Assembly (NCBI RefSeq): GCF_900107215.1
Contig: NZ_FNPD01000002.1
Coordinates: forward strand, 124,001-188,000
DNA: 64,000 nt
Reading direction: 5' to 3'
Origin: Acetomicrobium thermoterrenum DSM 13490
Lineage (GTDB): Bacteria; Synergistota; Synergistia; Synergistales; Acetomicrobiaceae
The notes beneath the pieces were generated by a model. It saw only the letters and a program-made list of their open reading frames with translations. It was not told where the DNA came from and did not search any database. Made by a program: the position numbers and the translations under genes. Shown in pieces: positions 4,197-51,293 of the stretch. Each line of letters begins with the position of its first letter. Position 1 is the stretch's first letter.

Positions 4197-4215
4197 GTTT
4201 TCAAACTAAACTTTG

Positions 4216-4261: not shown

Positions 4262-4273
4262 GTATTCGTATTT

Positions 4274-4678
4274 CTAATTATTCCCCACCACAACCTGTTC
4301 TTTTCTATTATAGGAGGCCAGTAAGAACTCGTTGCTCATCGATAGACACTGTACAGGGCATATCTCGGTACATTGAGCACAGAAACAACATCGGTCAACA
4401 TGTACCATAATTTTCTTTTCCTCCGTTATATAGGATATAGCATTGGCGGGACATACTCTTACGCACAATCTGCAGCCGATGCACTTATCTTTATCGTATG
4501 CTATCCTTCCCCTGAAGCCCTCGGGCGTTGGCACTGGTGGGTTAAGCTCTACCTCGCCCGATTTAACCCTTTTCAATACAGCCAACAAGTGATCCGGTAT
4601 GTGCGCCAGCGGAAACAAATTGGTAAAGGGCTTTTTGAAGAATTGCTTGATGTTGATAAATAACATTTTATTTATCAT
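4274..4678 (-). CDS. mbhN: Membrane-bound [NiFe] hydrogenase ferredoxin-like subunit MbhN
   Basis: This 134-residue NuoI-like protein has two [4Fe-4S] motifs: Cys66-x2-Cys-x2-Cys-x3-Cys76 followed by Pro, and Cys97-x2-Cys-x2-Cys-x3-Cys107 followed by Pro. It is expected to take electrons from reduced ferredoxin and pass them to MbhJ on the cytoplasmic face. It is the last gene of the 14-gene operon, 12 bases after mbhM, and is followed by the terminator at 4216-4261. The gene order and the TGFRGR-like region before the first cluster match the NuoI/EchF/MbhN family. Confidence 0.88.
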
Positions 4679-4690
4679 TTTGTGTCCCTC

Positions 4691-5686: not shown

Positions 5687-6918
5687 CTATGCATCAGCCT
5701 CCTCGTCTTATCACGGCACATCCTTATCAGCTCCTCCTTGGTCGCGATAGTAGATGAACCTTTCTCATTAACGACCAACATCCTCTCCATACAAGAAATG
5801 CAGGGGTCTATGCTGTTAATGATTAGCGGAGCATCAGCTATCTCCTGATCTTTAAACATAATGGGCCACGACATGGCATTCGCATAGGTTGGAGCTCTGA
5901 CCTTCCACCACGTAACGTTTTCCTGCGCCTGAGTCAGTTTGACGACATGAGTATCATCTCCTCGAGGCGCTTCTATAGATGATTGGCCTACACCATCAGC
6001 TGTCTTTAACAGGTTCAACAGTTTTGCTGGTTTCGGCTCATGCATGATCGGCCCTTCCGGCAGGCCGTCCATGCATTGTTCTATAATTTCCAAAGATTGA
6101 TAAACCTCCATGACCCTCACGAAAAATCTGTCGAAAACATCGCCCTGAGCATTGCCGAAGTAATCCTGCGGAACAATTGGCTCTACCTTCAAATCCTCGT
6201 AAGCCTCATAGGGGGAAGACCATCTGAGGTCAACGCGCAATCCGCTGGCACGCGCCGTGGGGCCAACGGCACAATATTTCACGGCATCTTGTTCGGAAAG
6301 CACGCCAACGTTTCGCATCCTGGCTTTGACGATAGGATCCTCGGTAACGGCATTATAAAAATACGAGAACTCCCGCTTGTAATATTCGACCATTTCTTTT
6401 ATTGCTTCAGCCACTTGGAAAGTTATATCCCGACGAGCGCCCCCTATCGTACCGACGCCATAATTTACCCTATTGCCCGTCATGGCCTCCAATACATCCA
6501 TGACCTTTTCCCGAAGCAACATACCCAAATTGAAGGCTGAGTCGTATCCGAAGGTATAACAAGCTACGCCAGCCCAGAGGATATGGGAGTGTATACGTTC
6601 AAGCTCCAGCAAGATAGTGCGTATATACTTTGCCCTCGGAGGAACTGGAATGCTGGCAGCATCTTCTACAGCCCTCACAAAGGAAATTATGTGAGCAAAT
6701 GAACAGATACCACATATCCTTTCCGCCAGATATATGACTTGAATGGGATTTCTTTCCCTTGCCATATATTCAATCCCTCGATGTATTGCGCCAGGCCGTA
6801 TGCGCACATCTACAATTCTTTCGCCATCAACTTGCAGCCAGGCGGTAATCGGCTCCTTGAGGCCTACATGAACAGGACCGATCGGAATAGTATAAGTTTT
6901 TCCCTCTTCAATAGCCAT
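5683..6918 (-). CDS. mbhL: Membrane-bound [NiFe] hydrogenase large (catalytic) subunit MbhL
   Basis: This 411-residue homologue of complex I 49-kDa/NuoD keeps both nickel-binding pairs: Cys69-x2-Cys72 in ERICGICSFAH and Cys373-x2-Cys376 in DPCISCMER. That marks it as a real proton-reducing group 4 [NiFe] enzyme, not a Mbs/Mbx sulphur reductase or NuoD, which lack these cysteines. It produces H2 with electrons from ferredoxin by way of MbhN and MbhJ. The protein runs only about 35 residues past the last CxxC, so a C-terminal maturation extension, if present, is of the short energy-converting type. Confidence 0.93.
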   Translation of the reverse strand: MAIEEGKTYTIPIGPVHVGLKEPITAWLQVDGERIVDVRIRPGAIHRGIEYMARERNPIQVIYLAERICGICSFAHIISFVRAVEDAASIPVPPRAKYIRTILLELERIHSHILWAGVACYTFGYDSAFNLGMLLREKVMDVLEAMTGNRVNYGVGTIGGARRDITFQVAEAIKEMVEYYKREFSYFYNAVTEDPIVKARMRNVGVLSEQDAVKYCAVGPTARASGLRVDLRWSSPYEAYEDLKVEPIVPQDYFGNAQGDVFDRFFVRVMEVYQSLEIIEQCMDGLPEGPIMHEPKPAKLLNLLKTADGVGQSSIEAPRGDDTHVVKLTQAQENVTWWKVRAPTYANAMSWPIMFKDQEIADAPLIINSIDPCISCMERMLVVNEKGSSTIATKEELIRMCRDKTRRLMHR

Positions 6919-23326: not shown

Positions 23327-24754
23327 TTGGAGGTAAAAGGAGAACCTAGGCCAAGGATCATCGATTCGTTGATCTCAATAGGAGCGCTGATCTTCGTAAT
23401 GGCAATCTGCCTCGCAGTATATCACACAGATCCTCACGTTCCACTATTAATGGGATCGCTCTTTGCAAGCATCATCGCACTCAAGGTCGGTTACAAATGG
23501 AAAGATATCGAGACGGGTATGATGCAGGGAATTACCCAGGCTTTGCAAGCAATAGTGATACTTGCAATTATCGGATTACTGATAGGAGTGTGGATAAAAG
23601 CGGGCGTAGTTCCATCCATGATTTATTACGGACTTATGGTCATTTCGCCAAAATTTTTCCTCGTAGCGACATTGTTAATTTGTTCCATAGTGTCTCTAGC
23701 CACAGGTACTTCATGGGGAACCATCGGGACAATGGGCATCGCCCTGATGGGCATAGGAGCTGGCCTCGGGATACCTCCGGCGCAAACGGGAGGCGCGATA
23801 ATAAGTGGCGCATATTTTGGCGACAAAATATCGCCCCTCTCGGACACGACCAACCTTGCTCCAGCCATGGCCGGAACAGACTTGTTTACCCACATTAAAC
23901 ACACCTTGAAAGTCAGTGCAGTTTCTTATCCTTTAGCGATCTTGATATTTTTATTCTTAGGGATGAAATACTCCTCCACTAATGTCGATCTGTCTCAGAT
24001 AAAATCTATACAGGATGCCCTCGCCTTGCAGTTCAGCATCAATCCTCTGCTATTATTGCCGCCAATAATAGTAATAATATGCATCGCCTTAAAGGCACCT
24101 GCCATTCCAGGTATCACAATCGGCATCATAGCAGGAGCGATTGCAGCAGTAATATTTCAAGACGTTAACTTCGGAGATATAGTTAACGCAGGATACAGCG
24201 GATACGAAAGCATTTCCGGCAACGAAATGATCGATGAACTTTTAACCGCTGGGGGTTTGACGGGAATGATGTATTCGATATCCCTTACGATAATAGCAAT
24301 GATGTTCGGAGGCATAATGGAAAGGACAAAGCAACTCGAGGTCCTTGTTGATGCCCTTCTCAGCAAAGTCAAGACCACGGGCAATTTGGTTGCAGCAACG
24401 GCAGGGACATGCATAGCTTCAAATATGCTACTTCCAGAACAGTACATTTCGATCGTCTTGCCAGGCCGAATGTATGCAAATGCCTACCAAAAAATGGGGC
24501 TTCACCCCAAAAATTTGTCTAGAGCTCTGGAGTGTTCCGGAACGGTTACGTCATCATTGGTTCCGTGGAACACCTGCGGAGCCTTCATAAAGGGAACATT
24601 AGGGATATCTCCCTTTATGTATGGACCATATGCTTTTTTTAATATTTTGACCGTTTTGACTTTAATTATCTTCGGTTATTTCAATATCACCATGACCAGA
24701 CTTGACGAAGAGCCCGAAACTGTATTACGACTTGGCCAAATGACCGAAGAGTGA
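23327..24754 (+). CDS. nhaC: Na+/H+ antiporter of the NhaC family
   Basis: This 475-residue protein has about 11-12 helices. The stretch GAYFGDKISPLSDTTNLA near residue 163 is the NhaC signature, followed in the second half by the inverted-repeat equivalent (LPEQYISIVLPGRMYA and SSLVPWNTCGAFI). It exchanges Na+ for H+ across the inner membrane and would link to the ion gradient made by the Mbh complex. The start is a TTG eight bases after GGGGG; no other start fits near the N-terminus. A terminator follows. Confidence 0.92.
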   Translation: MEVKGEPRPRIIDSLISIGALIFVMAICLAVYHTDPHVPLLMGSLFASIIALKVGYKWKDIETGMMQGITQALQAIVILAIIGLLIGVWIKAGVVPSMIYYGLMVISPKFFLVATLLICSIVSLATGTSWGTIGTMGIALMGIGAGLGIPPAQTGGAIISGAYFGDKISPLSDTTNLAPAMAGTDLFTHIKHTLKVSAVSYPLAILIFLFLGMKYSSTNVDLSQIKSIQDALALQFSINPLLLLPPIIVIICIALKAPAIPGITIGIIAGAIAAVIFQDVNFGDIVNAGYSGYESISGNEMIDELLTAGGLTGMMYSISLTIIAMMFGGIMERTKQLEVLVDALLSKVKTTGNLVAATAGTCIASNMLLPEQYISIVLPGRMYANAYQKMGLHPKNLSRALECSGTVTSSLVPWNTCGAFIKGTLGISPFMYGPYAFFNILTVLTLIIFGYFNITMTRLDEEPETVLRLGQMTEE

Positions 24755-24771
24755 TTCGAGTGGTCCTTTTA

Positions 24772-24804
24772 AAAAATAGAGGGGGGTTACCCCCCTCTAT
24801 TTTT
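24772..24804. terminator. Bidirectional intrinsic terminator after nhaC
   Basis: AAAAATAGAGGGGGG, a three-base loop and CCCCCCTCTATTTTT form a perfect 15-bp stem. The T-run serves nhaC (plus). The A-run on the other side serves the gene ending at 24806 on the minus strand. Confidence 0.93.
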
Positions 24805-24805
24805 G

Positions 24806-25441
24806 CTAAGATGTCTTTCCCTCGTCGTTTCCCTTTTGAAGATGATTGTTCCTCCTCCGAAACCTTTCTTTCCAAAGGAGACCGCGCTTTTCGTCTCCAC
24901 TTATTTCCCTGAACAACGGAATTTCCGTCCAGCCCCAGGGAGTCAAAAGGATGAAGCGAAGGGAAACGCCCATTTCCGTTAATGATTTTATGTGCTTTGA
25001 GTACTGAATTACATCGCTCAATTCCCAATTTTCGGCAATAATCCATATCCTTCGGCATGTTTCTTTTGCAAACAGCGCCGCATGATCTATTGCCCACCTC
25101 ATCGCTTCATCGTTATCGACTGGCGTAAACGAGAGAACGATGGCTTCCTCATGCCCGAACCCGTCTATCTCCGGACCTACAATGTCAGCGTATTCTCTAA
25201 GCCATGCCAACTGCTCCAATAAGTATTGCGGATCGTCGAGGTCGTAACCCTCCGAGGCCAATTCTTCTATTCTTTTAACCTCGTCGCCGTTGGAGACAAA
25301 CCCCCACATGAAGCCCTGAATTTGAGAAAGCAACCTCTCAATGAATGGTGGATAATCTTGCATAGACATCATTTTAAGCAAATCCTCCACATAAAGTTGA
25401 TTATCGTCGTTTGCACTACGCCTATCCTTCTTGTTTGTCAT
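24806..25441 (-). CDS. Conserved-looking hypothetical protein
   Basis: This 211-residue soluble protein has no family I recognise. The N-terminal third is polar and helical. The middle has LASEGYDLDDPQYLLEQLAW. The second half alternates hydrophobic strands and helices (CRRIWIIAENW, VSLRFILLTPWGW), which suggests a small alpha/beta domain. The tail is very basic and polar. I start at the ATG at 25441 because GGGAGGTG lies just upstream; in-frame ATGs further up lack a ribosome site. It is transcribed alone, divergently from the cysteine hydrolase. Confidence 0.7.
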   Translation of the reverse strand: MTNKKDRRSANDDNQLYVEDLLKMMSMQDYPPFIERLLSQIQGFMWGFVSNGDEVKRIEELASEGYDLDDPQYLLEQLAWLREYADIVGPEIDGFGHEEAIVLSFTPVDNDEAMRWAIDHAALFAKETCRRIWIIAENWELSDVIQYSKHIKSLTEMGVSLRFILLTPWGWTEIPLFREISGDEKRGLLWKERFRRRNNHLQKGNDEGKTS

Positions 25442-25584
25442 GTCACCTACACCTCCCGCCATCCCATACAACCGATGGCCGAAAGAGAATAACATAACGG
25501 GACTAAAATTTCCAGTGGAAAAATTACTGTATTTGAAGCAAAATAAATATGACAATCAATCAAACAAAAGGAGGACCAGGCCGA

Positions 25585-26139
25585 ATGACGCCTTATACAC
25601 TGAAAAAAGACAAATCCCAGCTGTTAATAATAGACGTACAGGAACGTTTGTTGCCCGCCATCTGCGATAACACGTCAATTGTAAGAAATATCAAACTACT
25701 TTTGAAGGCAGCTCAACTGCTCTCTGTCCCGACGAAATATACAGAGCAATACCCGAAGGGTTTGGGCCCAACTGTTTCCGACATATTGGAGTTGCTTCCC
25801 ACCGAAACCCCCCGGTTTGAAAAAATCCATTTTTCCTGTTGCGATGAGGGCAATTTCAAAGATTTTCTCGGACAGGAAAGGAAACAGGTAATATTAGCAG
25901 GCATAGAGACCCATATATGCATATTGGCCACGGCAATGGATCTGTTAAATGACGGATACCAAGTGGTGATAGCCATGGAGGGGGTGGGAAGCAGGCGTAA
26001 AGAACATCATCTTGCTGCCCTCAATGTCCTTTCGCAACGTGGGGCTATGCTATTGCCAACAGAAAGCATTATCTATCAGTGGTTGAGCAAATCGGGGACT
26101 CCCGAGTTCAAGAAAATGTTGCCTTTTTTTAAGGAGTAA
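25585..26139 (+). CDS. Isochorismatase-family cysteine hydrolase
   Basis: This 184-residue protein has the catalytic triad of the cysteine hydrolase/isochorismatase-like superfamily: Asp17 (LLIIDVQE), Lys80 and Cys112 (GIETHICI). It is closest in layout to the short YcaC/ycaC-like and nicotinamidase-type members. Substrate is unknown. The start at 25585 follows GGAGG. It heads a three-gene run with the MBL hydrolase seven bases downstream and the malic-enzyme homologue. Confidence 0.88.
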   Translation: MTPYTLKKDKSQLLIIDVQERLLPAICDNTSIVRNIKLLLKAAQLLSVPTKYTEQYPKGLGPTVSDILELLPTETPRFEKIHFSCCDEGNFKDFLGQERKQVILAGIETHICILATAMDLLNDGYQVVIAMEGVGSRRKEHHLAALNVLSQRGAMLLPTESIIYQWLSKSGTPEFKKMLPFFKE

Positions 26140-26146
26140 CTTCAAA

Positions 26147-27019
26147 ATGAACGATATTGCCGATCTATTCTTCAAGGGAGCATTCATTAAGTTTTTAGGT
26201 ACAGGCGGCGCCAGGTTTGTAATGATAAACCAAACCCGCTCCACAGGTGGTATCTGGCTTGGCCTTTTCGGCTACCACGTCCTAATTGATCCGGGTCCGG
26301 GTTCGCTGGTAAGAATTTGCGAAGCAGGTACACCCTTCACTCCGGAGATCCTGGAAACGGTCATGCTTACACATAAACATCTGGACCATAGCAATGACAT
26401 AAATGTTATGGTTGAGGCAATTACGCATGGCGGTTTTAAAAGACGGGGCACTCTCATTCTCCCCCGAGATGCCGCGATGGGAGAAGGGCAAATATTGCTC
26501 TCTCACTTCAACACAAAAATTGGCAAAATTCACTACTGGGAGGATGAAAGACTGATACCGCTCAGCGAGGGAATGCTGGAAGCGGTCCGGTTGATTCATC
26601 ACGGAGTGGAGTGCTACGGCTTTATATTGAGATATCCTGAGATTGCTCCCTTTGGTTTTATAAGCGATACACGATACGATGAAGAAATAGTAAAAAGATA
26701 TCATGGTTGCAAGGTTTTAGTAGTCAACATGACCTTCAATCACATCAGAAATGGCGTTGACCATTTAGCCGTCGATCATGTCGCTCTGATCAGAGACCTG
26801 GTGGCTCCAGAGCTGATCATGCTAAATCATTTTGGCCGAGGAGTAATCGATGCCGGTCCTGAAAAAATTGCCTTATCCTTGACTACCAAAAGCTGCAAGG
26901 TTATAGCACCCTTTGACGGCCAAATGATTGATTTAAAATCTTTCGAATCTTTTTTTTTGAGGAGGATACTTAATGTTAATGGAATGGCATCGTGCAATCG
27001 AGCTGCACAAAAGAACTAA
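26147..27019 (+). CDS. Metallo-beta-lactamase fold hydrolase (RNase Z-like)
   Basis: This 290-residue protein has the metal motif His76-x-His78-x-Asp80-His81 (LTHKHLDH). A later His in LIHHGVECYGF, Asp in FISDTRYD and His in LNHFGRG complete the two-metal site. The order and spacing look like the RNase Z/arylsulphatase-type branch, with FLGTGGAR at the start. Substrate is not known. Its last 47 bases overlap the next gene, whose ribosome site GAGGAGG lies inside it. Confidence 0.85.
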   Translation: MNDIADLFFKGAFIKFLGTGGARFVMINQTRSTGGIWLGLFGYHVLIDPGPGSLVRICEAGTPFTPEILETVMLTHKHLDHSNDINVMVEAITHGGFKRRGTLILPRDAAMGEGQILLSHFNTKIGKIHYWEDERLIPLSEGMLEAVRLIHHGVECYGFILRYPEIAPFGFISDTRYDEEIVKRYHGCKVLVVNMTFNHIRNGVDHLAVDHVALIRDLVAPELIMLNHFGRGVIDAGPEKIALSLTTKSCKVIAPFDGQMIDLKSFESFFLRRILNVNGMASCNRAAQKN

Positions 27020-28217
27020 AGGCAAAGTGAAGGCATACCCATCATTAAGGCTTCGCACCAAAGACGACTTAGCCTGTGCATACTTTCCCGGAAGCTATGC
27101 CGCCGCTGACCTGATAAGCAAGAACAATGATGCTTCCTTTGAATACACGGGGAGGGGAAATTCGATCTTCGTCGTTTCGAACGGTTCTTCGATTTTGGAC
27201 CTCAAGGAACAAGATCCATTTGCAGTATTGCCGATATTGGAGGGCAAATGCCTCATATACAAGATGTTCGGCGACATAAACGCCTTCCCCCTCTGCCTTG
27301 AAGCAAAAAGCGCCGAAGAGATCATCGAGACATGTAAATTGATAGCTCCCACTGTCGGTGGTATAAACCTGTCCAACATATCGTCCCTGACATCGTTTGA
27401 AATATTAAGGAAACTTCAAAGCTCATTGGATATTCCGGTATCTTCCGATGATCATTACGGAATTGCCGTAGCGCTTTTCGGGGCTCTGAAAAACGCCTTA
27501 CGTATAGTAGGCAAGGATCTTTCTGATATCAAGATAGCTATATGGGGAGCAGGCAAGGCAGGCATATCGACGGCAAGATTACTACTTTCAGCAGGAGCAA
27601 ACCGAATAGCAATGGTGAACAGCCATGGCATATTGACAAAGACAAATCCCTACATGAGCAAGGAACAAGCGGAATTGGCGGAAAGATTGGACCTAAACGT
27701 GGACTATCAAGATATTAAAGCAGCCATATCTCAAGCCGATGTTCTAATAGGACTATCGACGAAGGACGCCTTCGAACCTGATTACATTAAGCTCATGAAC
27801 CAAGACCCCATTGTATTTGCCTTGGCACTGCCGGAACCGGAAATTAATCCTGCTTTAGCAAAAGAAAAGGGAGCTGCTATAGTGGCTAGCAGCTTATATT
27901 GGACTACGACCATCAATCCTATAGCCAGCTTTCAGGTATATCCGGGGATAATGAGAGGAGCCCTTGATGTCCGCGCAGCGACAATAACGACAAATATGCT
28001 TTTAAGGGCAGCCGACGGCTTTGCCCAATCAATTGACGATAAGCGGCTATCTCCCGACAACATAGTGCCGCCTCTTTTTTCCGACGAGGTTACTCCACGC
28101 ATAGCGGAGGCCGTGGCCCAAGCTGCCATAGAGGAGGGGATCGCCCTTAACCCTCTTCCGAAAAATAAAGTGTATGCACAAACCTGGGAGAGGTTATTCG
28201 GCGGAAGGATTATTTAA
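26973..28217 (+). CDS. Malic enzyme homologue with altered active site
   Basis: This 414-residue protein has the full malic-enzyme layout: N-terminal domain (LHKRTKGKVKAYP, AYFPG with Tyr37, LPILEGKCLIYK) and NAD-binding domain (IWGAGKAGISTARLL). Key catalytic parts are changed. The metal pair Glu-Asp of the NLED motif is Ser134-Asn135, the DDQHGTA motif reads DDHYGIA, and the ANP motif that binds the acid reads ALP. Asp159/Asp160 remain. It may be inactive, regulatory, or act on another substrate. It is translated from GAGGAGG inside the upstream MBL gene. Its 3' end overlaps the convergent methyltransferase by 24 bases. Confidence 0.85.
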   Translation: MLMEWHRAIELHKRTKGKVKAYPSLRLRTKDDLACAYFPGSYAAADLISKNNDASFEYTGRGNSIFVVSNGSSILDLKEQDPFAVLPILEGKCLIYKMFGDINAFPLCLEAKSAEEIIETCKLIAPTVGGINLSNISSLTSFEILRKLQSSLDIPVSSDDHYGIAVALFGALKNALRIVGKDLSDIKIAIWGAGKAGISTARLLLSAGANRIAMVNSHGILTKTNPYMSKEQAELAERLDLNVDYQDIKAAISQADVLIGLSTKDAFEPDYIKLMNQDPIVFALALPEPEINPALAKEKGAAIVASSLYWTTTINPIASFQVYPGIMRGALDVRAATITTNMLLRAADGFAQSIDDKRLSPDNIVPPLFSDEVTPRIAEAVAQAAIEEGIALNPLPKNKVYAQTWERLFGGRII

Positions 28218-41774: not shown

Positions 41775-43151
41775 TCATATTATAATCTCCATTTTTTGGC
41801 ATGCTCCAAAATATTCTTCAACTTCCTTCACATATTCCTTGTATCCCTTGCGGCCCATGAGCGAATATATATACCGTTTCCCCTGTTCCACTCCAGGTTG
41901 ATCGAAGGGATTGATTTTCATCAAAAAACCGACAAGAGCTGTTACATATTCATAGAAGAACACCAACGCACCAATATATCTCTCGGAAACTTCAGGAATC
42001 TTAAGGTAAATAATCGGCTTTCCGGCTTTTACCAAAGCCGAAGCCGTCGAACGAGCCTCTATACTCAACAGATCTCCGAGGGCTTTTCCGTATAAAAACT
42101 CCAAATCCTTCAATGCATCTATATCTACAACGTCCGGCAATAGGAATAACGGCCTATTATTTACGTCGATAATCGTAATTAGCTTATCGTCCGGGCCTTC
42201 CGCGTAAAGTTGAAGCTGGGAATGCTGATCTATAGCTCCGAGAGCACGCACAGGAGTGGTGCCGCATCCCTCTTTGCCAAGGCTTTCTCCCCAAAGCTGA
42301 GCAAACCATTCGGCAAAATCGGCAAGATCGTCTCCATAGGGCATCATAACGGCCATATTACGGCCGGCTTTAGCGTGCAACAGGTTAATGCAGGCCAATA
42401 GCCATGCGGGGTTTTCCCAAAGGTGCGACCGCAAGGCAAGTCTTTGATCCATCTCCTTGGCACCTTGAACCAGCTTTTCGATGTTGATACCCAAAGCGGA
42501 AGCCGTTGCCAACCCTACCGAGGAAAGAACAGAATACCTGCCCCCCACGCTTTCTGGAATATTCAAACTCCTACAACCTGTAGATTTGGCAAATTTGCGC
42601 AGAATGCCCTTTCTAGGATCGGTAATTATCAAAAAATTGTCGCTTGCCCTTTCGCCCATCTTTTCCCTGACCTTTTGCCATGCCCATAAAAAGTGCGCAG
42701 CCGTTTCCGTCGTGCTTCCCGATTTGCTGACGACTATAAATGCTGTCTTCGACAAATCAAGCCGATCCAGTAAAGATACTGCCGTCTTGGGATCCGGATT
42801 TTCCAGCAGATAAAACTTGGGGGCCTTTCTGACGGAAGCATCAAGTTCGTTGTAAAAAGGGGGAAGGAGTGCCTTTGCAAGCATTCTGTTTCCCAAAGCA
42901 GATCCGCCAATGCCTATTTGCACGATGGCTTCAAAGCCGGAAAGCCAACGCCCAATTTCAATCGTTTCGGACAAATCCTGATAGGGCAGGTTAATCCAAC
43001 CAAAGCCATCAACGTCGTCCCTCCCCTTTTCCCGCAACAGGACATCGGCTTCTTCCACCATTCTTGAAAGATCATCGATATTTTCTCTCAAGACGGGACG
43101 ATCTCCACCTACAAAAGCACCTCCGACGCTTACGCTCAACAGCTCGTCCAA
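41775..43151 (-). CDS. pgi: Glucose-6-phosphate isomerase
   Basis: This 458-residue glycolytic enzyme interconverts glucose-6-phosphate and fructose-6-phosphate. IVQIGIGGSALGNRML, VVSKSGSTTETAAHF and the PGI signature region (PVRALGAIDQHSQLQLYAEG, read here in its core GAIDQHSQLQLY) are present. The length fits the shorter bacterial form. The start is TTG eight bases after GGGGGA. It lies 25 bases after the glutaredoxin gene. Confidence 0.94.
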   Translation of the reverse strand: MDELLSVSVGGAFVGGDRPVLRENIDDLSRMVEEADVLLREKGRDDVDGFGWINLPYQDLSETIEIGRWLSGFEAIVQIGIGGSALGNRMLAKALLPPFYNELDASVRKAPKFYLLENPDPKTAVSLLDRLDLSKTAFIVVSKSGSTTETAAHFLWAWQKVREKMGERASDNFLIITDPRKGILRKFAKSTGCRSLNIPESVGGRYSVLSSVGLATASALGINIEKLVQGAKEMDQRLALRSHLWENPAWLLACINLLHAKAGRNMAVMMPYGDDLADFAEWFAQLWGESLGKEGCGTTPVRALGAIDQHSQLQLYAEGPDDKLITIIDVNNRPLFLLPDVVDIDALKDLEFLYGKALGDLLSIEARSTASALVKAGKPIIYLKIPEVSERYIGALVFFYEYVTALVGFLMKINPFDQPGVEQGKRYIYSLMGRKGYKEYVKEVEEYFGACQKMEIII

Positions 43152-43176: not shown

Positions 43177-43422
43177 CTAATCTAATATACTGTTCTCCTT
43201 TAAAAGCTCCTTAATGGTCTCAGGATCATAACCGACAATAAACTTATCGCCTATGAAGGTTACGGGCACACCCATTTGGCCAGTTCGCCTCACCATGTCC
43301 ATAGCAGCAGCCCTGTCTTTGCTGACGTCTACCTCCTCATACTCGACACCCAAGTCTTTTAAATATTCTTTTACCTTTGTACACCACGGACATGTGGGAG
43401 TACTATAAACTTTCACAGTCAT
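43177..43422 (-). CDS. Glutaredoxin-like protein (CPWC)
   Basis: This 81-residue thioredoxin-fold protein has the redox site Cys11-Pro-Trp-Cys14 and the conserved VPVTFIGDKFIVGYD. It belongs with the YruB/NrdH-like small glutaredoxins of anaerobes and would reduce disulfides or pass electrons from a thioredoxin reductase. It heads the operon with pgi and sufCB. Confidence 0.9.
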   Translation of the reverse strand: MTVKVYSTPTCPWCTKVKEYLKDLGVEYEEVDVSKDRAAAMDMVRRTGQMGVPVTFIGDKFIVGYDPETIKELLKENSILD

Positions 43423-43611: not shown

Positions 43612-44112
43612 ATGCTTTCAACAAAACAAGATGACGAGCAGGCTTTACAGAACATTATCGAGACCTTTAGGGGTAAAAAGGGCATCACAATTTCGCTTTT
43701 ATCGAAAATACAAGAAAGTTACGGCTATTTGCCACAAGAAGTATTGAGCAGGGTAGCCAAAGAGCTCGATATTCCCGAAGCAAGTCTCTATGGTGTAGCG
43801 ACATTTTATGCCATGTTTAGATTTAAACCTTTAGGCAAATATACCATAAAACTCTGCAGAGGAACGGCTTGTCATGTACAGGGATCCTTGTTAATAGCTC
43901 AAGAAGTGATGAGACATCTGGGAATTTCGGAAGGAGAGACGACGGACGACGGACTTTTTACGTTGGAGCTTGTCGCCTGTCTCGGATGCTGCAGCCTGGC
44001 TCCTGTTATGATGGTCGGAGAAGACGTTTATGGTCGCCTGACGCCCGATAGGGCCGTAAAGGTTCTGGATAGCTACAGAACGAACAAAAGAGGTGAAGGC
44101 AATAATGACTAA
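43612..44112 (+). CDS. NuoE/HydC-like [2Fe-2S] subunit
   Basis: This 166-residue 24-kDa-type subunit has four ligands for a [2Fe-2S] cluster: Cys82-x4-Cys87 (CRGTACH) and Cys123 with Cys127 (CLGCC; Cys126 is extra). It is the small partner of a NADH-oxidising flavoprotein. The start follows GGAGGGAAGC. Its stop overlaps the start of the NuoF-like gene by eight bases, as in HydABC and NADH-linked formate dehydrogenase operons. Confidence 0.93.
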   Translation: MLSTKQDDEQALQNIIETFRGKKGITISLLSKIQESYGYLPQEVLSRVAKELDIPEASLYGVATFYAMFRFKPLGKYTIKLCRGTACHVQGSLLIAQEVMRHLGISEGETTDDGLFTLELVACLGCCSLAPVMMVGEDVYGRLTPDRAVKVLDSYRTNKRGEGNND

Positions 44113-45877
44113 TACAATAGTGCGCGTTGGGATGGCAAGCTGTGGTTTGGCATCGGGGGCAGACTCCGTTTATGAGGAACTCTCCAAAGTGCTTGTCGGA
44201 GACGAAAATACTATTTTAAAAAAGGTCGGATGTATTGGCCTGTGCTCATATGAACCTTTAGTTGAAGTAGAAATCGAGGGCAAGAGAACCATTTATGGAT
44301 ATATGACACCCGAATTGGCCAAGGAATTGGTCGGCTCCTCCTTTCGCCCCACTTCAGCCCTAAAAGAAAAGATTATATACAGCGATGAGGAAACTCAGGC
44401 GCCGGAAAATAACAGGATGGCAAAGCAGGTCAGGATAGTTCTCAGAAACTGCGGGATAATTGACCCGGAAAAAATAGACGAGGCCATTTCCAGAGGGGCT
44501 TATGAGGCGTTTTCAAAGGCCGTGAAGGAAATGTCTCCCGATGAAGTCATAGATGAAGTGTACAGATCAGGCCTTAGGGGTCGTGGTGGCGCAGGATTCC
44601 CAACGGGGCTTAAGTGGAAATTTACGCGACAAGCCAAGGGAGAATCCAAATATGTGATTTGCAATGCCGACGAAGGAGATCCGGGCGCCTTTATGGACAG
44701 GTCCGTATTGGAGGGTGACCCCCACGCCGTCATAGAGGGTATGGCTATATGCGCTTACGCCGTCGGTGCTTCTCACGGTTATATTTATTGTCGAGCAGAA
44801 TATCCTTTGGCCATAAAAAGGATAAACATAGCTCTTGACCAGGCACGCGAAAGAGGCTTTTTGGGAGACAACGTTTTTGGCAGCGGCTTTAATTTCGATA
44901 TAGAGATAAAAGAAGGGGCCGGGGCATTTGTTTGCGGCGAAGAGACAGCCCTGATAGCCTCAATAGAAGGAAAACGGGGAATGCCGCGACCTCGACCTCC
45001 CTTTCCAGCCGAAAGCGGCGTTTGGGGAAAGCCGACCAACATTAACAACGTGGAAACCTATGCAAACGTGCCGTGGATAATACGACATGGAGCATCGGAA
45101 TTCTCAGCTTTTGGTACGGAAAAAAGCAAGGGAACGAAGGTATTTGCCCTCGCCGGCAAGGTAGCCAAAGGAGGCCTCATCGAAATTCCAATGGGAATGC
45201 CCATCAGAGAAGTAATATATGATATTGGCGGCGGAATCGCCGACGGAAAAGAGATCAAAGCAGTACAAATGGGCGGGCCGTCGGGAGGATGCATACCTTC
45301 CTGGCTTCTCGATACACCGGTAGATTACGAATCCATAACAGCCACGGGAGCAATCATGGGTTCCGGAGGTATGATTGTTTTGGACGAAACAAGCTGCGTC
45401 GTCGATGTGGCAAAGTTTTTTCTGAACTTCACACAACGCGAATCCTGCGGAAAATGTCCCTTTTGCAGAATAGGTACAAAAAGAATGCTAGAGATATTAG
45501 AACGCATCAGCAACGGAGAGGGAAAGATGGAGGATCTTGATCTGCTTTATGAACTGGCATTACAGGTAAAGGAAGGTTCCCTATGCGGTCTTGGACAGAC
45601 GGCCCCAAACCCTGTGTTGACTACGCTAAAATACTTCAGAGAGGAATACGAAACTCATGTTAAGGACAAGAAATGTCCCGCAAAGGTGTGCCCTTCTCTC
45701 ATTCGCTACACAATAAATACCGATCTATGCATAGGTTGTACTAGATGTGCCAGGATATGTCCCGTTGGCGCAATTAGCGGCAAAGTTAAGGAACCCCACG
45801 AAATAGACGACGCCAAATGCGTGAGATGCGGGCAATGCAAACAGACCTGTCCTGTCTCTGCTATATTTGTTGATTGA
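44105..45877 (+). CDS. NuoF/HydB-like NADH-binding flavoprotein subunit
   Basis: This 590-residue protein has an N-terminal thioredoxin-like [2Fe-2S] domain (residues 1-100). The 51-kDa domain follows, with NADH/FMN site GRGGAGFPTGLKWKF, GDPGAFMDRSVLEG and GAGAFVCGEETALI. The [4Fe-4S] motif ESCGKCPFCRIGT comes next. Two C-terminal ferredoxin-type clusters (CIGCTRCARICP and CVRCGQCKQTCP) finish it. This layout is that of HydB of electron-bifurcating hydrogenases, not of complex I NuoF, which lacks the ferredoxin tail. I start at the ATG at 44105 after GAGGTGA. Confidence 0.93.
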   Translation: MTNTIVRVGMASCGLASGADSVYEELSKVLVGDENTILKKVGCIGLCSYEPLVEVEIEGKRTIYGYMTPELAKELVGSSFRPTSALKEKIIYSDEETQAPENNRMAKQVRIVLRNCGIIDPEKIDEAISRGAYEAFSKAVKEMSPDEVIDEVYRSGLRGRGGAGFPTGLKWKFTRQAKGESKYVICNADEGDPGAFMDRSVLEGDPHAVIEGMAICAYAVGASHGYIYCRAEYPLAIKRINIALDQARERGFLGDNVFGSGFNFDIEIKEGAGAFVCGEETALIASIEGKRGMPRPRPPFPAESGVWGKPTNINNVETYANVPWIIRHGASEFSAFGTEKSKGTKVFALAGKVAKGGLIEIPMGMPIREVIYDIGGGIADGKEIKAVQMGGPSGGCIPSWLLDTPVDYESITATGAIMGSGGMIVLDETSCVVDVAKFFLNFTQRESCGKCPFCRIGTKRMLEILERISNGEGKMEDLDLLYELALQVKEGSLCGLGQTAPNPVLTTLKYFREEYETHVKDKKCPAKVCPSLIRYTINTDLCIGCTRCARICPVGAISGKVKEPHEIDDAKCVRCGQCKQTCPVSAIFVD

Positions 45878-45891
45878 GGAGGCTTTTAGGT

Positions 45892-48800
45892 ATGGAGCGA
45901 AACATTAGAGTATTGCTAAACGGTCGTGAAGTCTACGGTTACCCGGGACAAACGATATTAGATCTTTGCAAGGATTGTGGTGTGGACATACCTTTTCTGT
46001 GTTACGATCCGCATCTTTCGACACACGGAGGATGTTCTGTTTGCCTGGTGGAAGTGAAGGGGGCCAAGGCTTTGGTGCGAGCCTGCTCCAATAAGATATC
46101 CCAGGGCATGGAGATATACACCAATACGGAAAGAACTGTCGCGGCAAGGAGGACAGCTCTGGAGCTTTTGTTATCGGATCACTTTGGAGATTGCAGACCG
46201 CCCTGTACTCTTGCCTGCCCTGCCAGAGGTGATGTTCAAGGTTACGTAAACTTAGCTGCCTCCGGCTTTTACAAAGAAGCCTTGGACTTGCTCCACGAAA
46301 ACGTAACCCTTCCTGCTTCCATAGGACGAATTTGTCCTGCACCCTGCCAGGAAAAGTGCAGACGCAATTTCGTCGACGAAGAACCTGTTTCCATAAGGGA
46401 GATCAAGCGCTTCGTAGGAGACTGGGCCATCGAAAATGGCATGCTGGGCCACATAGACGAAATACAGGAAAACGGCCACAACGTAGCTATTGTAGGGGGA
46501 GGCCCCGCTGGATTATCGGCTGCCTTTTTTCTCAGAAAAAAAGGTTATGCCGTGACTATTTTCGAGAAAGAATCGCATCTGGGAGGCATGATGCGATACG
46601 GGATCCCAGAGTACAGGCTACCCCGAGACATCATGCAGAAAGAAATAGACTGGTTGCTGTCGTGGGGCATAAAGGTCCAGACGGACACTGCCCTTGGAAG
46701 AGATATAACTTTAGAGCAATTGCGCAGGGAATTTGATGCCATATTGCTCGCCTTTGGCTGCTGGCAAAGCACACCTTTACGCGTCCCGGGAGAGGACCTA
46801 AAGGGTGTATTTGGCGGAATAAATTTCCTGTATCAGGTGAATAACCGTCTTCCCGTAGAGATAGGCAAGAAAGTCGCTGTCATCGGGGGTGGAAATACCG
46901 CAATGGACGCCTGTCGATGCGCCAAAAGGCTTGGGGCTGAAGAAGTTACAGTAGTTTACAGACGCACAAGACAGGAAATGCCGGCCGAGGACGCTGAAAT
47001 CGAGGAGGCAATGGAAGAAGGGATAAACTTTATTTTCCTTGCAGCACCCAAGGAAATATCAGGTGACGAATCGGTCCGTGAACTTGTGTGCGAAAAGATG
47101 GTCCTTGGCGAGCCCGACGAATCGGGAAGAAGAAGGCCCATTCCTACGGGAGAAACATTTACCTTGACTGTAGATACCGTGATAGCTGCAATAGGACAAA
47201 GGGCCGTACTCGACTTTCTGCCGCCTGAAATCCACGACGGCCGAAAGATTTTAGGCGATGACAACTACGCTACCCCTCTCGAAAAGGTATTTCTATGCGG
47301 AGATTTGAGGACCGGACCCGATATAGCAATTGCGGCTATAGGGGAAGGCCATTTTGCTGCTGAATCTATACATCATTTTATTACCCGCGGATATCCCAAG
47401 CGCCCCTTTGAATGCGACGTCACAAGAGAAGACCTAGGGCCCGAAGATTTCAGGGACAAGAAAAAACAACCCAGGGAAATGCCTAAAATCTTCCCGGCAG
47501 AGGAAAGACTTGAAAAACCCTTCAAAGAATTCAGCAAGGGGCTCACGGAAGAGCAGGTAAAAAGAGATGCCAGCCGATGCATGGAGTGCGGATGTCCCGA
47601 CGTCTTCGAATGCAAATTGCGCTCTTATTCGATCGAATACGAGGCTTCGCCTACACGGCTTAGCGGAGAAAGGATAAAGCGCCTTGAGGAAAAATTGAAA
47701 TACTTCGACAGAAACATGGATAAATGTATACTTTGTGGAAGATGCGTCAGGACCTGCGATGAGATCGTCGGACTACATGCCATTGATTTTGTAAGCAGGG
47801 GATTTGTCTCGACAATACACGATGCATACATGAAGCCCTTGGATGAATCTGAATGCACGGGGTGCGGCCTTTGCGTGCAGCTATGCCCCGTCGGCGCTCT
47901 TACCGAGAAACGAAAAGAGCGTTGGCCTCACAGTGAAATCCCAACGGCCACAAAGACCACCTGCGGTGAATGCTCTCTTGGGTGCGAGATATATGTAAAT
48001 GCCGACAAGGGGAAACGTAATGTAGTGCGGGTTACCACAGAGTTGGGGTCCCCAACTTCGCCCACTCGCGGGCTGTGTTGTTTCAAGGCGCGAACCTTCC
48101 ATTTAAAAAGACAAAGGCCGGAAATAAATAAAGATATCAAGGAAACTTTGCCTGAACTCGTCGACTTCCTTCGTTCCGAAGGAGTTGTCTCGCTATTTTT
48201 AGGGAACTCGCTGAGCAACGAAGAATATGAGTCCATAAAAGAGTTTTTAAACCGTAAAGGGCAAAATATCGCAGTCTCAATTTTGGAAGCCGATGACTTT
48301 AAAGCTTTCACGTCCCTTGCCGAGGAGGCAAACTTGAAGAGATGTACGCTGGGACAAATCTACGAATCCGATGTCGTCTTCCTTATTGACGAAAACATGG
48401 ATCAGGAAGTACCTTTGATCACCACGATGTTACGCAAAAATGTCAGAGAAGATGGCTTAAATGTAATTTACTTGGGAAGCGATCCTGGATTGCTCGACAG
48501 GGGTACCACAATTTTACTGAAGACCGATGTAGCGGAAATATATCCTATACTCGAATCTTTCACAGATGAAAAGCTGATCAAAAAGACATCGGAGCTCTCG
48601 GGGATAAAGGAGACAACGCTTATCAGGGCAATAAATACACTAAAATCAGCCAAATATCCTATTTTCTTGGCGGGACCAAAAGTTACCTCAAATGCCTCTT
48701 CAGCCAAGGCGTTCGTAAAATTATGTTCGACCTTGGACAAATGCTCCTACATACCTCTCTATCGGGGTGCTAATACCGAGGGAGCTTTACGCGTACTTGG

Positions 48801-49125
48801 AGATATTTTAACTCCGACAATCGATAATCTGAGCATGATCAAGAAGGGCCAGGTTACAAAGCTGGTGTTGGTCGAACCCGATCAAGCCACCGTTGAAGTC
48901 CTACAAGGGGTCAATGCGGACAATCGTGCCAAATGTGCCCTCTTGGCATCGAGATCATTCGAGGATATTAAAGCAGATCTGGTAATGCCAATTGCGGGTT
49001 GGTACGAAAGGCGGGGAAAGGTAATAAACGTATCGGGAGAGATCTTGAAACAAGAAATAACCGTAATACCTCAGAAAAAGAGCAAAACCCTATCTTCGTT
49101 AATCAAAGCACTCACAGAAATCTGA
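45892..49125 (+). CDS. NuoG/GltD fusion iron-sulfur flavoprotein
   Basis: Domains in order in this 1077-residue protein: [2Fe-2S] ferredoxin (Cys37, 48, 51, 65); GltD-type double [4Fe-4S] domain (Cys101/105/109 and 148/152/156); FAD-binding Rossmann (AIVGGGPAGLSAA, about 199); NAD(P)H-binding Rossmann (VAVIGGGNTAMDACRCAKRL, about 328); two [4Fe-4S] motifs (CILCGRCVRTC at about 613, CTGCGLCVQLCP at about 655); molybdopterin-type [4Fe-4S] domain (CGECSLGC at about 691); and a diverged NuoG/FdhA-like tail to the end. No H-cluster domain and no formate dehydrogenase Cys/Sec motif is seen. It forms a complex with the two upstream genes. I start at the ATG nine bases after GAGGAGG. Confidence 0.9.
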   Translation: MERNIRVLLNGREVYGYPGQTILDLCKDCGVDIPFLCYDPHLSTHGGCSVCLVEVKGAKALVRACSNKISQGMEIYTNTERTVAARRTALELLLSDHFGDCRPPCTLACPARGDVQGYVNLAASGFYKEALDLLHENVTLPASIGRICPAPCQEKCRRNFVDEEPVSIREIKRFVGDWAIENGMLGHIDEIQENGHNVAIVGGGPAGLSAAFFLRKKGYAVTIFEKESHLGGMMRYGIPEYRLPRDIMQKEIDWLLSWGIKVQTDTALGRDITLEQLRREFDAILLAFGCWQSTPLRVPGEDLKGVFGGINFLYQVNNRLPVEIGKKVAVIGGGNTAMDACRCAKRLGAEEVTVVYRRTRQEMPAEDAEIEEAMEEGINFIFLAAPKEISGDESVRELVCEKMVLGEPDESGRRRPIPTGETFTLTVDTVIAAIGQRAVLDFLPPEIHDGRKILGDDNYATPLEKVFLCGDLRTGPDIAIAAIGEGHFAAESIHHFITRGYPKRPFECDVTREDLGPEDFRDKKKQPREMPKIFPAEERLEKPFKEFSKGLTEEQVKRDASRCMECGCPDVFECKLRSYSIEYEASPTRLSGERIKRLEEKLKYFDRNMDKCILCGRCVRTCDEIVGLHAIDFVSRGFVSTIHDAYMKPLDESECTGCGLCVQLCPVGALTEKRKERWPHSEIPTATKTTCGECSLGCEIYVNADKGKRNVVRVTTELGSPTSPTRGLCCFKARTFHLKRQRPEINKDIKETLPELVDFLRSEGVVSLFLGNSLSNEEYESIKEFLNRKGQNIAVSILEADDFKAFTSLAEEANLKRCTLGQIYESDVVFLIDENMDQEVPLITTMLRKNVREDGLNVIYLGSDPGLLDRGTTILLKTDVAEIYPILESFTDEKLIKKTSELSGIKETTLIRAINTLKSAKYPIFLAGPKVTSNASSAKAFVKLCSTLDKCSYIPLYRGANTEGALRVLGDILTPTIDNLSMIKKGQVTKLVLVEPDQATVEVLQGVNADNRAKCALLASRSFEDIKADLVMPIAGWYERRGKVINVSGEILKQEITVIPQKKSKTLSSLIKALTEI

Positions 49126-49144: not shown

Positions 49145-49180
49145 AATAATTAAGCGGGAGGATTCTCCCGCTTAATTATT
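49145..49180. terminator. Bidirectional terminator between the NuoEFG-like operon and fusA2
   Basis: AATAATTAAGCGGGAG pairs perfectly with CTCCCGCTTAATTATT around GATT. The outer stem is AU-rich on both strands, so it could end both converging transcripts, although a long U-run is missing. Confidence 0.75.
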
Positions 49181-49208: not shown

Positions 49209-51293
49209 TTACTCTTCTTCCGCCTCAGCTTGAGCCTGAGCTATTATCTTTTTGGCCAGGTCTTGAGGGACTTCTTCGTAGTGAGAATATTCCATGGAGA
49301 AACTGCCTCGGCCCGAAGTCATGGAACGAAGGACGATGGCATACCTGAACATTTCCGCAAGAGGCACTTGGGCCTTAACCACCTGTAATCTCCCTCTGCT
49401 CTCGATACCCATAATTCTCCCTCTTCTAGAGTTCAAATCGCCCATGACATCGCCCAGATACTCCTCGGGCACTACTACTTCCACGTCCATGATCGGTTCA
49501 AGTAAGACGGGAGAGCCTTCCATAAAACACTTCTTGAAAGCCATTGAAGCTGCTATTTTAAAGGCCATTTCTGAAGAATCGACTTCATGGTAAGAGCCGT
49601 CGTAAAGAACGGCCTTAAAATCTATGGCAGGATAGCCGGCAAGGACACCCTTTTGAGCTGCCTCTCTTAATCCTTTTTCGACGGCAGGAATGTATTGCTT
49701 GGGAACGACCCCACCGACAATACGATCCTCAAACTCGACACCGCTGCCCCGCTCTGTAGGCTGCAACTCAAGCCACACGTCCCCGTATTGTCCTCGGCCA
49801 CCGGTTTGCTTCTTGTATTTGCCTTGCGCTTTAGAGGGCTTTTTGATGGTCTCTCTGTATGGAACTTTGGGTAAACGAGTTTCGAGTTCCACGCCATATC
49901 TTTCTTTAATGCGCGACAGGACTACGTCCAGATGTAAATCTCCCATGCCTGAAAGGAGGTGGTCTCCGGTTTCAACGTTTTTCTCATAGCGCAACGTGGA
50001 ATCCTCTTCGAGCATGCGATGAATAGCGTTAGACAGCTTATCTTCGTCAGCCCTGCTTTTAGGAACGACTGCCAGGCTATAAACGGGATTCGGAAATTGA
50101 ATCGCGGGAAACGTAAAATCGACTCCCTTGACTGCAACGGTATCCCCGACACCGGCGTTTTGCAACTTGGGGATAGCCACAATGTCTCCCACTGTCACCT
50201 CTTTAACGTCCTTCCCTTCCTTGCCCCTCATGAACCTTAGAGAGCTTATCCTTTCCTCGACCTTTTTATTTACAATGAATACAGATTGATCCGAAGTCAA
50301 GGTCCCTGAAAATACTCTAACGAATGATAGCTTTCCCACATAGGGATCGACCATGACTTTAAAACAGAGAGAGCTGAATTTCTCATTGGGATCGGGCTTC
50401 ACTTTTACTTCATTGCCCTCTGCATCTATCGCCTTTCTGGGAAACATATCTACTGGGGAGGGCAGAATATCGGTTATGGTATCTAAAAGCTGGAATATTC
50501 CGATATTCGCAAGAGCCGAACCGGGCAATACGGGCATCACTATCCTATTTAACACCGCCTTTTTCAATGCCTCTACCAACTCTTGTTCTTCCAGTTCTTC
50601 TCCGTCGAGGTAACGCATCATCAGTTCATCGTCAACTTCCACTACCCTCTCCACCAAGGCTTCACGGGCAGAGGAAAGTCCTTCCTCGAGTTCGGAGGGA
50701 CAATCAATCTCCTTATACTCTCGACTTCCATCACCTTTATATATAAAGGCCTTTCCGGTCAGCACATTTACTAAGCCTTTAAAATTTGTTTCCTGACCGA
50801 TGGGTAAAAACAACGGAAGTGCTTTATTCGTCAAAACCTCCTGAATTTCTTTCAATGTCCTGTAAAAATCAGCATTTTCCCTTTCCACTTTATTTATAAA
50901 AAACAGTACGGGTACGGAAAAATCCTCGGCAAAATCGAAGGCCTTTTCAGTTTGAACTTCCACGCCATCGACTCCGCTTACAACTATAACCGCCGAGTCA
51001 GCCACTCGCATTCCCGAACGCAGATCTCCAATGAAATCGGCATAACCAGGGGTATCAAGAACAAACATCCTTTTGCCATTATAGTCGAAGGTTGCGACAG
51101 ATGTATTGATAGAAATCTGTCTCTTCTGTTCTTCGGCGTCATAATCGCTGACGGTATTGCCATCCTCTACTTTACCTAAACGTCCAATAACTTCCGCATC
51201 GAACAACATTGCCTCGACCAGCGATGTCTTTCCTGCACCTCCGTGAGCTGCTACCGCAATCGTTCTCGTATCCTCAGGTTTGTGCGCTCCCAT
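49209..51293 (-). CDS. Elongation factor G-like translational GTPase (EF-G2 type)
   Basis: This 694-residue protein has all EF-G domains: P-loop AAHGGAGKTSLVEAM, switch II LDTPGYADFIGD, G4 FINKVERENADF, domain IV GRGQYGDVWLELQP and domain V RRGRIMGIESRGRLQ. The P-loop reads HGGAGKTS where the main EF-G has HIDAGKTT, and this points to the EF-G2 paralogue. The main fusA, normally in the str operon, is not in this window. It is the last gene of a long operon, 17 bases after gatB. Its role may be in translocation under special conditions, or ribosome recycling. Confidence 0.9.
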   Translation of the reverse strand: MGAHKPEDTRTIAVAAHGGAGKTSLVEAMLFDAEVIGRLGKVEDGNTVSDYDAEEQKRQISINTSVATFDYNGKRMFVLDTPGYADFIGDLRSGMRVADSAVIVVSGVDGVEVQTEKAFDFAEDFSVPVLFFINKVERENADFYRTLKEIQEVLTNKALPLFLPIGQETNFKGLVNVLTGKAFIYKGDGSREYKEIDCPSELEEGLSSAREALVERVVEVDDELMMRYLDGEELEEQELVEALKKAVLNRIVMPVLPGSALANIGIFQLLDTITDILPSPVDMFPRKAIDAEGNEVKVKPDPNEKFSSLCFKVMVDPYVGKLSFVRVFSGTLTSDQSVFIVNKKVEERISSLRFMRGKEGKDVKEVTVGDIVAIPKLQNAGVGDTVAVKGVDFTFPAIQFPNPVYSLAVVPKSRADEDKLSNAIHRMLEEDSTLRYEKNVETGDHLLSGMGDLHLDVVLSRIKERYGVELETRLPKVPYRETIKKPSKAQGKYKKQTGGRGQYGDVWLELQPTERGSGVEFEDRIVGGVVPKQYIPAVEKGLREAAQKGVLAGYPAIDFKAVLYDGSYHEVDSSEMAFKIAASMAFKKCFMEGSPVLLEPIMDVEVVVPEEYLGDVMGDLNSRRGRIMGIESRGRLQVVKAQVPLAEMFRYAIVLRSMTSGRGSFSMEYSHYEEVPQDLAKKIIAQAQAEAEEE

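Follow-up and report, generated by a model that had tools for sequence, protein, structure and literature searches.

The window analyzed here is a stretch of 64,000 nucleotides from Acetomicrobium thermoterrenum DSM 13490, whose genome is 1.97 Mb and 99.95% complete. Positions 43,612 to 49,125 hold three open reading frames (ORFs) on one strand, here called stnA, stnB, and stnC (Table 1). A preliminary description of this DNA had listed a NuoE-like subunit, a NuoF/HydB-like subunit with a ferredoxin tail, and a subunit of 1077 residues, and the ORFs, gene starts, and Pfam matches agree with that account. Shine–Dalgarno-like stretches read from the DNA back the start codons of stnA and stnC, with AGGAGGG upstream of the former and GAGGAGGC just upstream of the latter; a weaker one precedes the proposed ATG of stnB. 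Because of these starts, and because a hairpin splits stnC from a convergent EF-G-like gene, we regard stnABC as a stand-alone three-gene unit (the terminator scan returned 12 terminator-like sites versus 7.0 in shuffled sequence). StnC is 98% identical to its counterpart in Acetomicrobium hydrogeniformans ATCC BAA-1850 and 71% identical to that of another genome of the genus (G011). Residue numbers of StnC refer to the 1083-residue frame, from which six are subtracted for the ATG start.

The Pfam matches of StnC run from a [2Fe-2S] domain through Fer4_20 and Pyr_redox_2, which represent a GltD module, to a NuoG-type dicluster and PF00384. The preliminary description had placed the GltD module between the [2Fe-2S] domain and the NuoG-type chain; this order stands and can be sharpened, as the module sits inside the NuoG His/Cys3 motif, with H103-x3-C107 before it and C569–C580 after it. 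Kremp et al. (2020) describe two Cys-rich motifs as the product of GltD integration. The NuoG family PF10588 matched only on contigs 6 and 4 of the genome and not in StnC. Splitting of the motif by the GltD insertion would explain this miss, which is not evidence against a NuoG ancestry of StnC. At the C-terminal end, PF00384 is matched over its positions 43–352 only, and PF01568, the molybdopterin-dinucleotide-binding domain, is absent from the 24 Pfam matches of the protein. The two families together make up a complete molybdopterin-binding fold; by Pfam, the complete fold of the formate dehydrogenase alpha subunit (PF00384 with PF01568) was not found in StnC.

Conservation was assessed in an alignment of 75 fusions from the fetched loci, which includes near-copies (e.g., L026, L027, L028, and L101–L103) and several partial proteins. 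Window StnC has ligands for six [4Fe-4S] clusters and one [2Fe-2S] cluster, with all 27 Cys or His residues and one Lys present. Of the 75 fusions, 46 agree at every one of the 28 cluster-site residues; another 28 are missing just the four C1 Cys, and the remaining one (L068) is truncated at 445 residues by a contig end. C569, C572, C574, and C580 are Cys in 74 of the proteins, with a gap in one truncated at a contig end. The YRR motif of the NADP(H) site occurs in all 75, R241 (R239 in Sporomusa ovata) is Arg in 73, and the Lys ligand of cluster C7, K178, is Lys in every one. Its S. ovata equivalent, K170, was reported to be strictly conserved in a 2023 electron cryomicroscopy (cryo-EM) paper. 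Searches of viral contigs yielded no StnC relative.

In StnA, C82, C87, C123, and C127 are Cys in 40 of 40 relatives. StnB combines two NuoF-like domains (PF01512, PF10589) with a 4Fe-4S tail, and the four B1 Cys, the B2 His with three Cys, and the eight Cys of the ferredoxin tail are invariant in 66 of 66 sequences. The B2 motif has been called a hallmark of bifurcating HydB/BfuB proteins (PMC9304861), and the paper that defines the Bfu family (Schut et al. 2022) describes the B2 and B3/B4 ligands as missing from non-bifurcating homologues. Window StnB carries the B1–B4 ligands, including the B2 His, together with the ferredoxin tail, by which that family recognizes BfuB. Counting StnC (seven clusters), StnB (B1–B4), and StnA (one), ligands for 12 clusters were found in the complex. 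The 2023 cryo-EM paper gives the same number for Stn and names the StnC clusters C1–C7. The earlier estimate of about ten is slightly low.

Table 1. Features of the stnABC locus and its flanks, with positions in the window (FMN, flavin mononucleotide; FAD, flavin adenine dinucleotide; E, expectation value).
Feature	Position	Strand	Remarks
stnA, NuoE/HydC-like [2Fe-2S] thioredoxin-fold subunit, 166 residues	43612..44112	+	PF01257, E = 8.9e-52
stnB, NuoF/HydB-like FMN and NAD(H) subunit with ferredoxin tail, 590 residues	44105..45877	+	Likely ATG start 44105; ORF as listed from GTG 44093, 594 residues
FMN-binding domain of stnB (PF01512)	44558..45073	+	NADEGDPG: E in 66/66, D in 65/66
H-x5-C-x4-C motif of stnB, B2 [2Fe-2S] site	45656..45691	+	H522, C528, and C533 kept in 66/66
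C-terminal 2x[4Fe-4S] ferredoxin-docking tail of stnB	45707..45865	+	PF00037/PF14697; 8 Cys in 66/66
stnC, NuoG–GltD fusion, 1077 residues	45892..49125	+	ATG start 45892; ORF as listed from TTG 45874, 1083 residues
N-terminal [2Fe-2S] domain of stnC	45898..46128	+	PF13510; C43, C54, C57, and C71 kept in 75/75
GltD/NfnB-type module of stnC: two [4Fe-4S] sites, FAD, NADP(H)	46198..47388	+	PF14691, PF07992
Rear part of the cluster motifs that the GltD insertion divides (C569, C572, C574, C580)	47578..47613	+	
NuoG-type 2x[4Fe-4S] dicluster of stnC	47710..47904	+	PF22117; 8 Cys in 74/75, gap in 1
FdhF-like C-terminal region of stnC: one [4Fe-4S] site (C697, C700, C704, C736), incomplete molybdopterin-type domain	47962..49122	+	
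16-bp hairpin, likely terminator, between convergent stnC and EF-G-like gene	49145..49180		Scan assigns it to the - strand
pgi, glucose-6-phosphate isomerase, slot flank	41775..43151	-	PF00342
grx, glutaredoxin, left edge of shared slot	43177..43422	-	PF00462; also at Stn and Nfn loci
EF-G-like GTPase gene, right slot flank	49209..51293	-	Named by reading the sequence; also at Stn and Nfn loci

All three subunits match chains of the StnABC complex of S. ovata (8oh5), which according to the 2023 cryo-EM paper is the complex in both 8OH5 and 8OH9. The best Protein Data Bank (PDB) match of StnB is 8oh5_B, StnB itself (E = 1.5e-260). For StnC, the best matches are 9bov_A (719 bits, "molybdopterin oxidoreductase"), 8oh5_C, which is StnC (663 bits), and 9n5u_A (577 bits, named NfnA); for StnA, the four best are 7t2r_C, 9n5u_C, 9bov_C, and 8oh5_A. 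Based on sequence, we are confident that positions 43,612 to 49,125 are stnABC and encode a soluble Stn-type (Nfn-Bfu) bifurcating transhydrogenase. The preliminary description had offered a merged NADH/ferredoxin/NADP+ bifurcating transhydrogenase as the first of its two readings, and this corresponds to the published function of the Stn family. Its implied novelty is not supported: papers of 2020 to 2023 had already described the fusion, solved its structure, and named members in Synergistota, and the type of enzyme is thus already known. Stn of S. ovata was purified in 2020 and reduced NADP+ in a manner dependent on NADH and ferredoxin (Kremp et al. 2020). Among the potential stn clusters in Table 1 of that paper are those of two Synergistetes, Acetomicrobium mobile (Anamo_1498, 1,071 residues) and Thermovirga lienii. 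Schut et al. (2022) call the same enzymes Nfn-Bfu and name Synergistetes among the organisms that hold them.

Comparison with characterized systems places the complex closest to that of S. ovata, with which it shares three genes with the same domains, the cluster set, the residues equivalent to K170 and R239, the ferredoxin tail, and the FdhF-like C-terminus. The StnC proteins differ in length (1172 residues in S. ovata versus 1077 here) and in a Cys, C114, that is Val in the window; about 710 N-terminal residues align (662 bits), and the FdhF part diverges. The A. mobile protein Anamo_1498 comes from another species of the same genus and has been listed as a potential Stn. The Type 1 Bfu family (Schut et al. 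2022), to which Nfn-BfuABC of Thermococcus sibiricus belongs and with which we compare PDB 9N5U ("NfnA/B/C"), shares the BfuBC core with FMN and a BfuA subunit with an NADP(H) domain. The NfnA chain of 9N5U has 963 residues, and BfuA of T. sibiricus is described as lacking the Cys residues of cluster A4, whereas window StnC keeps all sites. NfnAB has been reported to carry out the same net reaction with a GltD-type NADP(H) subunit, but it bifurcates electrons at the FAD of the GltD domain, has a different second subunit, and has no HydBC core. That system should show NfnA as a protein of its own next to a GltD-type NfnB (about 470 residues); no NfnB match was obtained in the window's genome at E ≤ 1e-115. 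HydABC and NiFe-HydABCSL hydrogenases contain HydC and HydB subunits homologous to StnA and StnB; Stn differs in having GltD as its input module and neither an H-cluster nor a NiFe subunit. Among the best 60 of 80 PDB matches of StnC, the best stretches of the hydrogenase matches end at residue 740 or before.

The neighborhood of the fusion was inspected in 46 loci of named collections (L026–L071), with flanks of up to 6 kb, some of which end at contig edges. StnB lies directly upstream of the fusion in 44 of these loci, the other two being at contig ends. Motif and profile searches of the flanking ORFs detected hydrogenase motifs or molybdopterin-family neighbors in none of the 46 loci; two loci of the window's genome, L023 and L024, served as controls, and the molybdopterin-type profile hit both of them and the NiFe motifs hit L024. 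H-cluster motifs were absent from the ORFs of all 46 loci, StnC included, in a scan for which there was no positive control; a looser form of the motif found [FeFe] HydA in other loci. The observation of the preliminary description that no hydrogenase or formate dehydrogenase gene adjoins the window locus is borne out. The pattern that it had set against its own reading, the fusion always lying beside such genes, was looked for in the 46 loci and no such neighbor was seen in any, and a hydrogenase or formate dehydrogenase link of StnABC was rejected on this ground.

To place Stn among related bacteria, we searched 185 Synergistota genomes and found Stn in 56, NfnAB, as judged by its GltD-type NfnB, in 107, both in none, and neither in 22. 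The Stn count comprises 54 genomes with a best E-value of 1.9e-177 or lower (the next being 3.1e-103) plus two that hold StnC fragments (G014 and G120), and the NfnB threshold of 1e-115 was fixed before the search. NfnA was present in all 35 Nfn loci fetched. Fisher's test gives 1.2e-29 for the exclusion, a value that ignores relatedness and is not relied on. For acetogens, Kremp et al. (2020) describe Stn and Nfn as "almost mutually exclusive."

The two systems often occupy the same chromosomal spot. Positions were compared in a non-random sample of 61 loci, which took a single genome from each genus wherever it could and added most of family f6; some of the loci end at contig edges. Of the 26 Stn loci, 17 have pgi no more than 2.5 kb away, as do 20 of the 35 NfnAB loci. 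A glutaredoxin gene lies within the same distance of eight loci of each kind, and 15 Stn and five NfnAB loci have an EF-G-like gene no more than 4 kb away. This count leaves out the Stn loci L026, L029, and L032, where pgi adjoins, and L031 and L053, which have no pgi. The order pgi-grx-nfnA-nfnB-EF-G in L182 and L185 corresponds to pgi-grx-stnABC-EF-G in the window, L026, and L188. Within one genus (g27), Stn occurs in six genomes and NfnAB in a single one (G107), and pgi adjoins the system in G107 and in all five Stn genomes whose flanks were fetched.

A tree of 39 glucose-6-phosphate isomerase proteins, built by a quick method and with several long-branched rows, requires at least seven changes between the Stn and NfnAB labels, four of which are forced by well-supported branches. 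The StnC proteins of Synergistota form a single clade (31 rows versus 38) in a tree that leaves out L027, L028, L068, L101–L103, and L125 and in which L030, recorded as "uncultured bacterium," was assigned by us to Synergistota. A single StnC clade would fit an ancestral Stn that was replaced by NfnAB. We infer that Stn and NfnAB repeatedly replaced each other in place, in at least four exchanges that may have run in either direction. What is new here is that related bacteria keep either Stn or the differently built NfnAB for the same job, often at the same spot. Two bifurcating transhydrogenases with different mechanisms that were never found together in 185 genomes and appear to exchange in place amount to a natural complementation experiment, which supports functional equivalence. 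The exclusion and the shared slot support a transhydrogenase role in vivo. Glucose-6-phosphate dehydrogenase was detected in three of the 185 genomes and PntB above the cut-off in one, neither being the window's genome; the control searches were positive in nine and four of 14 known genomes, respectively. That these two common sources of NADPH are mostly missing would fit a need for Stn or NfnAB.

Several observations weigh against the assignment to a bifurcating Stn-type transhydrogenase. No activity is reported for any Synergistota Stn in the literature searched, and, at the thresholds used, the genomes with neither system include five that are at least 92% complete (G072, G079, G087, G143, and G175). 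Two of the four ligands of B5, the N-terminal [2Fe-2S] cluster by which the Bfu family is also recognized, are Gly in window StnB (G13 and G18; C17 is a neighbor, not a ligand). The fifth B2 ligand is Ser, a position that varies among the 66 sequences (T 28, C 16, S 14, V 7, and I 1) and that corresponds to C476 in the NiFe enzyme of A. mobile and to Thr in many others. V121 of StnC occupies the place of S. ovata C114, where Cys is the minority state among the 75 fusions (V 41, C 28, I 5, and A 1). According to the 2023 cryo-EM paper, C114 modulates cluster C7 and is Val or Ile in two cases; the tuning of C7 may therefore differ here. The B5 Gly pair recurs in 40 of 41 StnB proteins with letters at those columns, and B5 is likewise lost in StnB of S. 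ovata (Kremp et al. 2020), whose enzyme the Bfu authors count as Nfn-Bfu. Because the B5 ligands are incomplete, we classify the window complex as Stn and limit its likeness to Bfu enzymes to the way in which it would work.

A further point against the assignment comes from Thermococcus litoralis, in which an enzyme with the same GltD–NuoG fusion, Nso, is named a sulfur oxidoreductase; its NsoC subunit is 41% identical to S. ovata StnC (Kremp et al. 2020). As A. hydrogeniformans reduces sulfur compounds by pathways that are unexplained, the window complex could, like NsoABC, be an oxidoreductase that acts on sulfur (or oxygen) with NADPH and serves this respiration. We consider this very unlikely. 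The exclusion of NfnAB and the shared slot point to a transhydrogenase job, simple NADPH-dependent sulfur reduction would not need the full FMN and ferredoxin core, and Nso itself may act as an NADH-dependent ferredoxin:NADP+ oxidoreductase, as suggested by Kremp et al. (2020).

The second reading of the preliminary description, a diaphorase that feeds electrons into some unlinked enzyme such as a hydrogenase or formate dehydrogenase, is disfavored to the point that we give it hardly any credence. NuoEFG modules often act as diaphorases, and the same genome carries a NiFe-HydABCSL-like cluster elsewhere, but that hydrogenase has its own HydABC, StnC brings an NADP(H) site of its own, its FdhF domain is incomplete, and no catalytic gene was seen beside any of the 46 related loci. 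The replacements at B5 and B2 could be taken to mean a non-bifurcating NADH:NADP+ transhydrogenase that has lost its ferredoxin coupling, which we hold to be extremely improbable given that bifurcating S. ovata StnB and nearly all StnB proteins with letters at those columns share the B5 loss and that the B2 His and Cys and all ferredoxin-tail Cys are kept throughout.

The function of StnABC as a bifurcating transhydrogenase can be outlined with a reaction, an electron path, and a gating mechanism carried over from published Stn work. The complex would catalyze NADH + 2 reduced ferredoxin + 2 NADP+ + H+ <-> NAD+ + 2 oxidized ferredoxin + 2 NADPH and would thereby link the NADH, NADPH, and ferredoxin pools. 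NADP(H) would react at the FAD of the GltD module of StnC, single electrons would run along the StnC cluster chain to the FMN of StnB, and NAD(H) would exchange a hydride at this FMN. The [2Fe-2S] domain of StnA is expected to swing and thus gate electrons to and from the ferredoxin tail of StnB, and the FdhF-like C-terminus would have a structural rather than a catalytic role. For S. ovata, the 2023 cryo-EM paper describes a path from NADPH via the StnC FAD, C7–C3, and B1 to the StnB FMN and NAD+, and, via moving StnA, to the ferredoxin tail. Most likely, Stn supplies NADPH in this sugar-fermenting, H2-forming Acetomicrobium, the direction and role being those that we infer; the species yields almost 4 H2 per glucose (PMC6025917).

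A natural form of StnC, of 673 to 702 residues, has neither the FdhF-like domain nor cluster C1. It accounts for 28 of the 75 fusions, 26 from Bacillota (among L035–L070) and two from Lentisphaerota (L064 and L066), with the phylum taken from the record title or taxonomy. In S. ovata, deletion of the FdhF-like domain from StnC gave no functional complex (2023 cryo-EM paper). The short natural StnC and the Val at the C114 position both bear directly on open questions of that paper. In one genome (G009, contig C5), two equal-scoring StnC copies lie on opposite strands (3515–6844 and 23819–27148), which may reflect duplication or an assembly effect.

The window's genome contains a second NuoEFG-like set with a GltD module, on contig 6 (L023:4332–10155, G000:C6). 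Its genes encode NuoE (177 residues), a 133-residue protein without a Pfam match, a protein of 1044 residues that we call HydB-GltD, and NuoG. In HydB-GltD, a whole GltD module takes the place of the ferredoxin tail of HydB, and no PDB chain among the best 60 of 69 matches covers both halves. At least 18 of the 185 Synergistota genomes contain relatives, whether full or partial. In seven of these 18 genomes, [FeFe] HydA is next (with three H-cluster motifs in five and two in two), and in three, NiFe small and large subunits are next; seven show no visible catalytic hydrogenase gene (five Acetomicrobium, G179, and G180), two of these reaching a contig edge about 1.2 and 0.7 kb on, and one is cut off. 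In the 17 long proteins (926–1054 residues), all four B1 Cys are present, as are the B2 His and three Cys, and the variable B2 place has Thr (16) or Val (1). These counts rest on 17 real ORFs, two of 19 automatic ones being spurious; the B3/B4 columns contain misaligned GltD Cys and were not used.

HydB-GltD departs from the Bfu definition: the domains by which the Bfu-family paper selected BfuB proteins include one of the 4Fe-4S ferredoxin type, and the paper describes B3 and B4 as conserved in all members. We read the GltD module, from its sequence, as a putative NADP(H) port in the place of ferredoxin. The design was not found in the literature searched, which contained few subscription papers and included passages of PMC5736913, PMC8097209, PMC11406978, PMC5037454, and PMC6288185. 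It may be related to group A2 of HydDB, the "glutamate synthase-linked" one, although the rule for that group excludes NuoF neighbors. In G003 (L152), a single gene row runs from NuoE through a kinase-like protein and a thioredoxin-like one to HydB-GltD, after which come another NuoE and another NuoF-like protein, the latter with 523 residues and no ferredoxin tail.

It is possible, though we lean slightly against it, that in Synergistota GltD is a plug-in NADP(H) port. A HydBC-type bifurcating core would take it up at two different ends, at the mid-potential arm in StnC and in place of the ferredoxin tail in HydB-GltD, so that NADP(H) would stand in for ferredoxin in bifurcating hydrogenases working with NADH, NADPH, and H2. 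On this reading, Stn and NfnAB would also have replaced each other repeatedly beside pgi, as if selection sees only the net reaction and not the mechanism of bifurcation. The value lies in two bifurcation mechanisms that exchange at one place, in natural variants of StnC, and in a second GltD design.

Contig 4 of the same genome carries the NiFe-HydABCSL-like cluster mentioned above (L024:2650–10453, G000:C4), with the order NuoE, histidine-kinase-like, thioredoxin-like, HydB, HydA, HydS, HydL, and maturation-protease-like, the genes being named partly by similarity and partly by reading the sequence. The cluster resembles an operon of A. mobile (PMC8880783). A protein of 870 residues, also encoded on this contig (L025:6958–9570), joins a GltD half to a Cys-rich second half that, by reading, appears HdrD/CCG-like.

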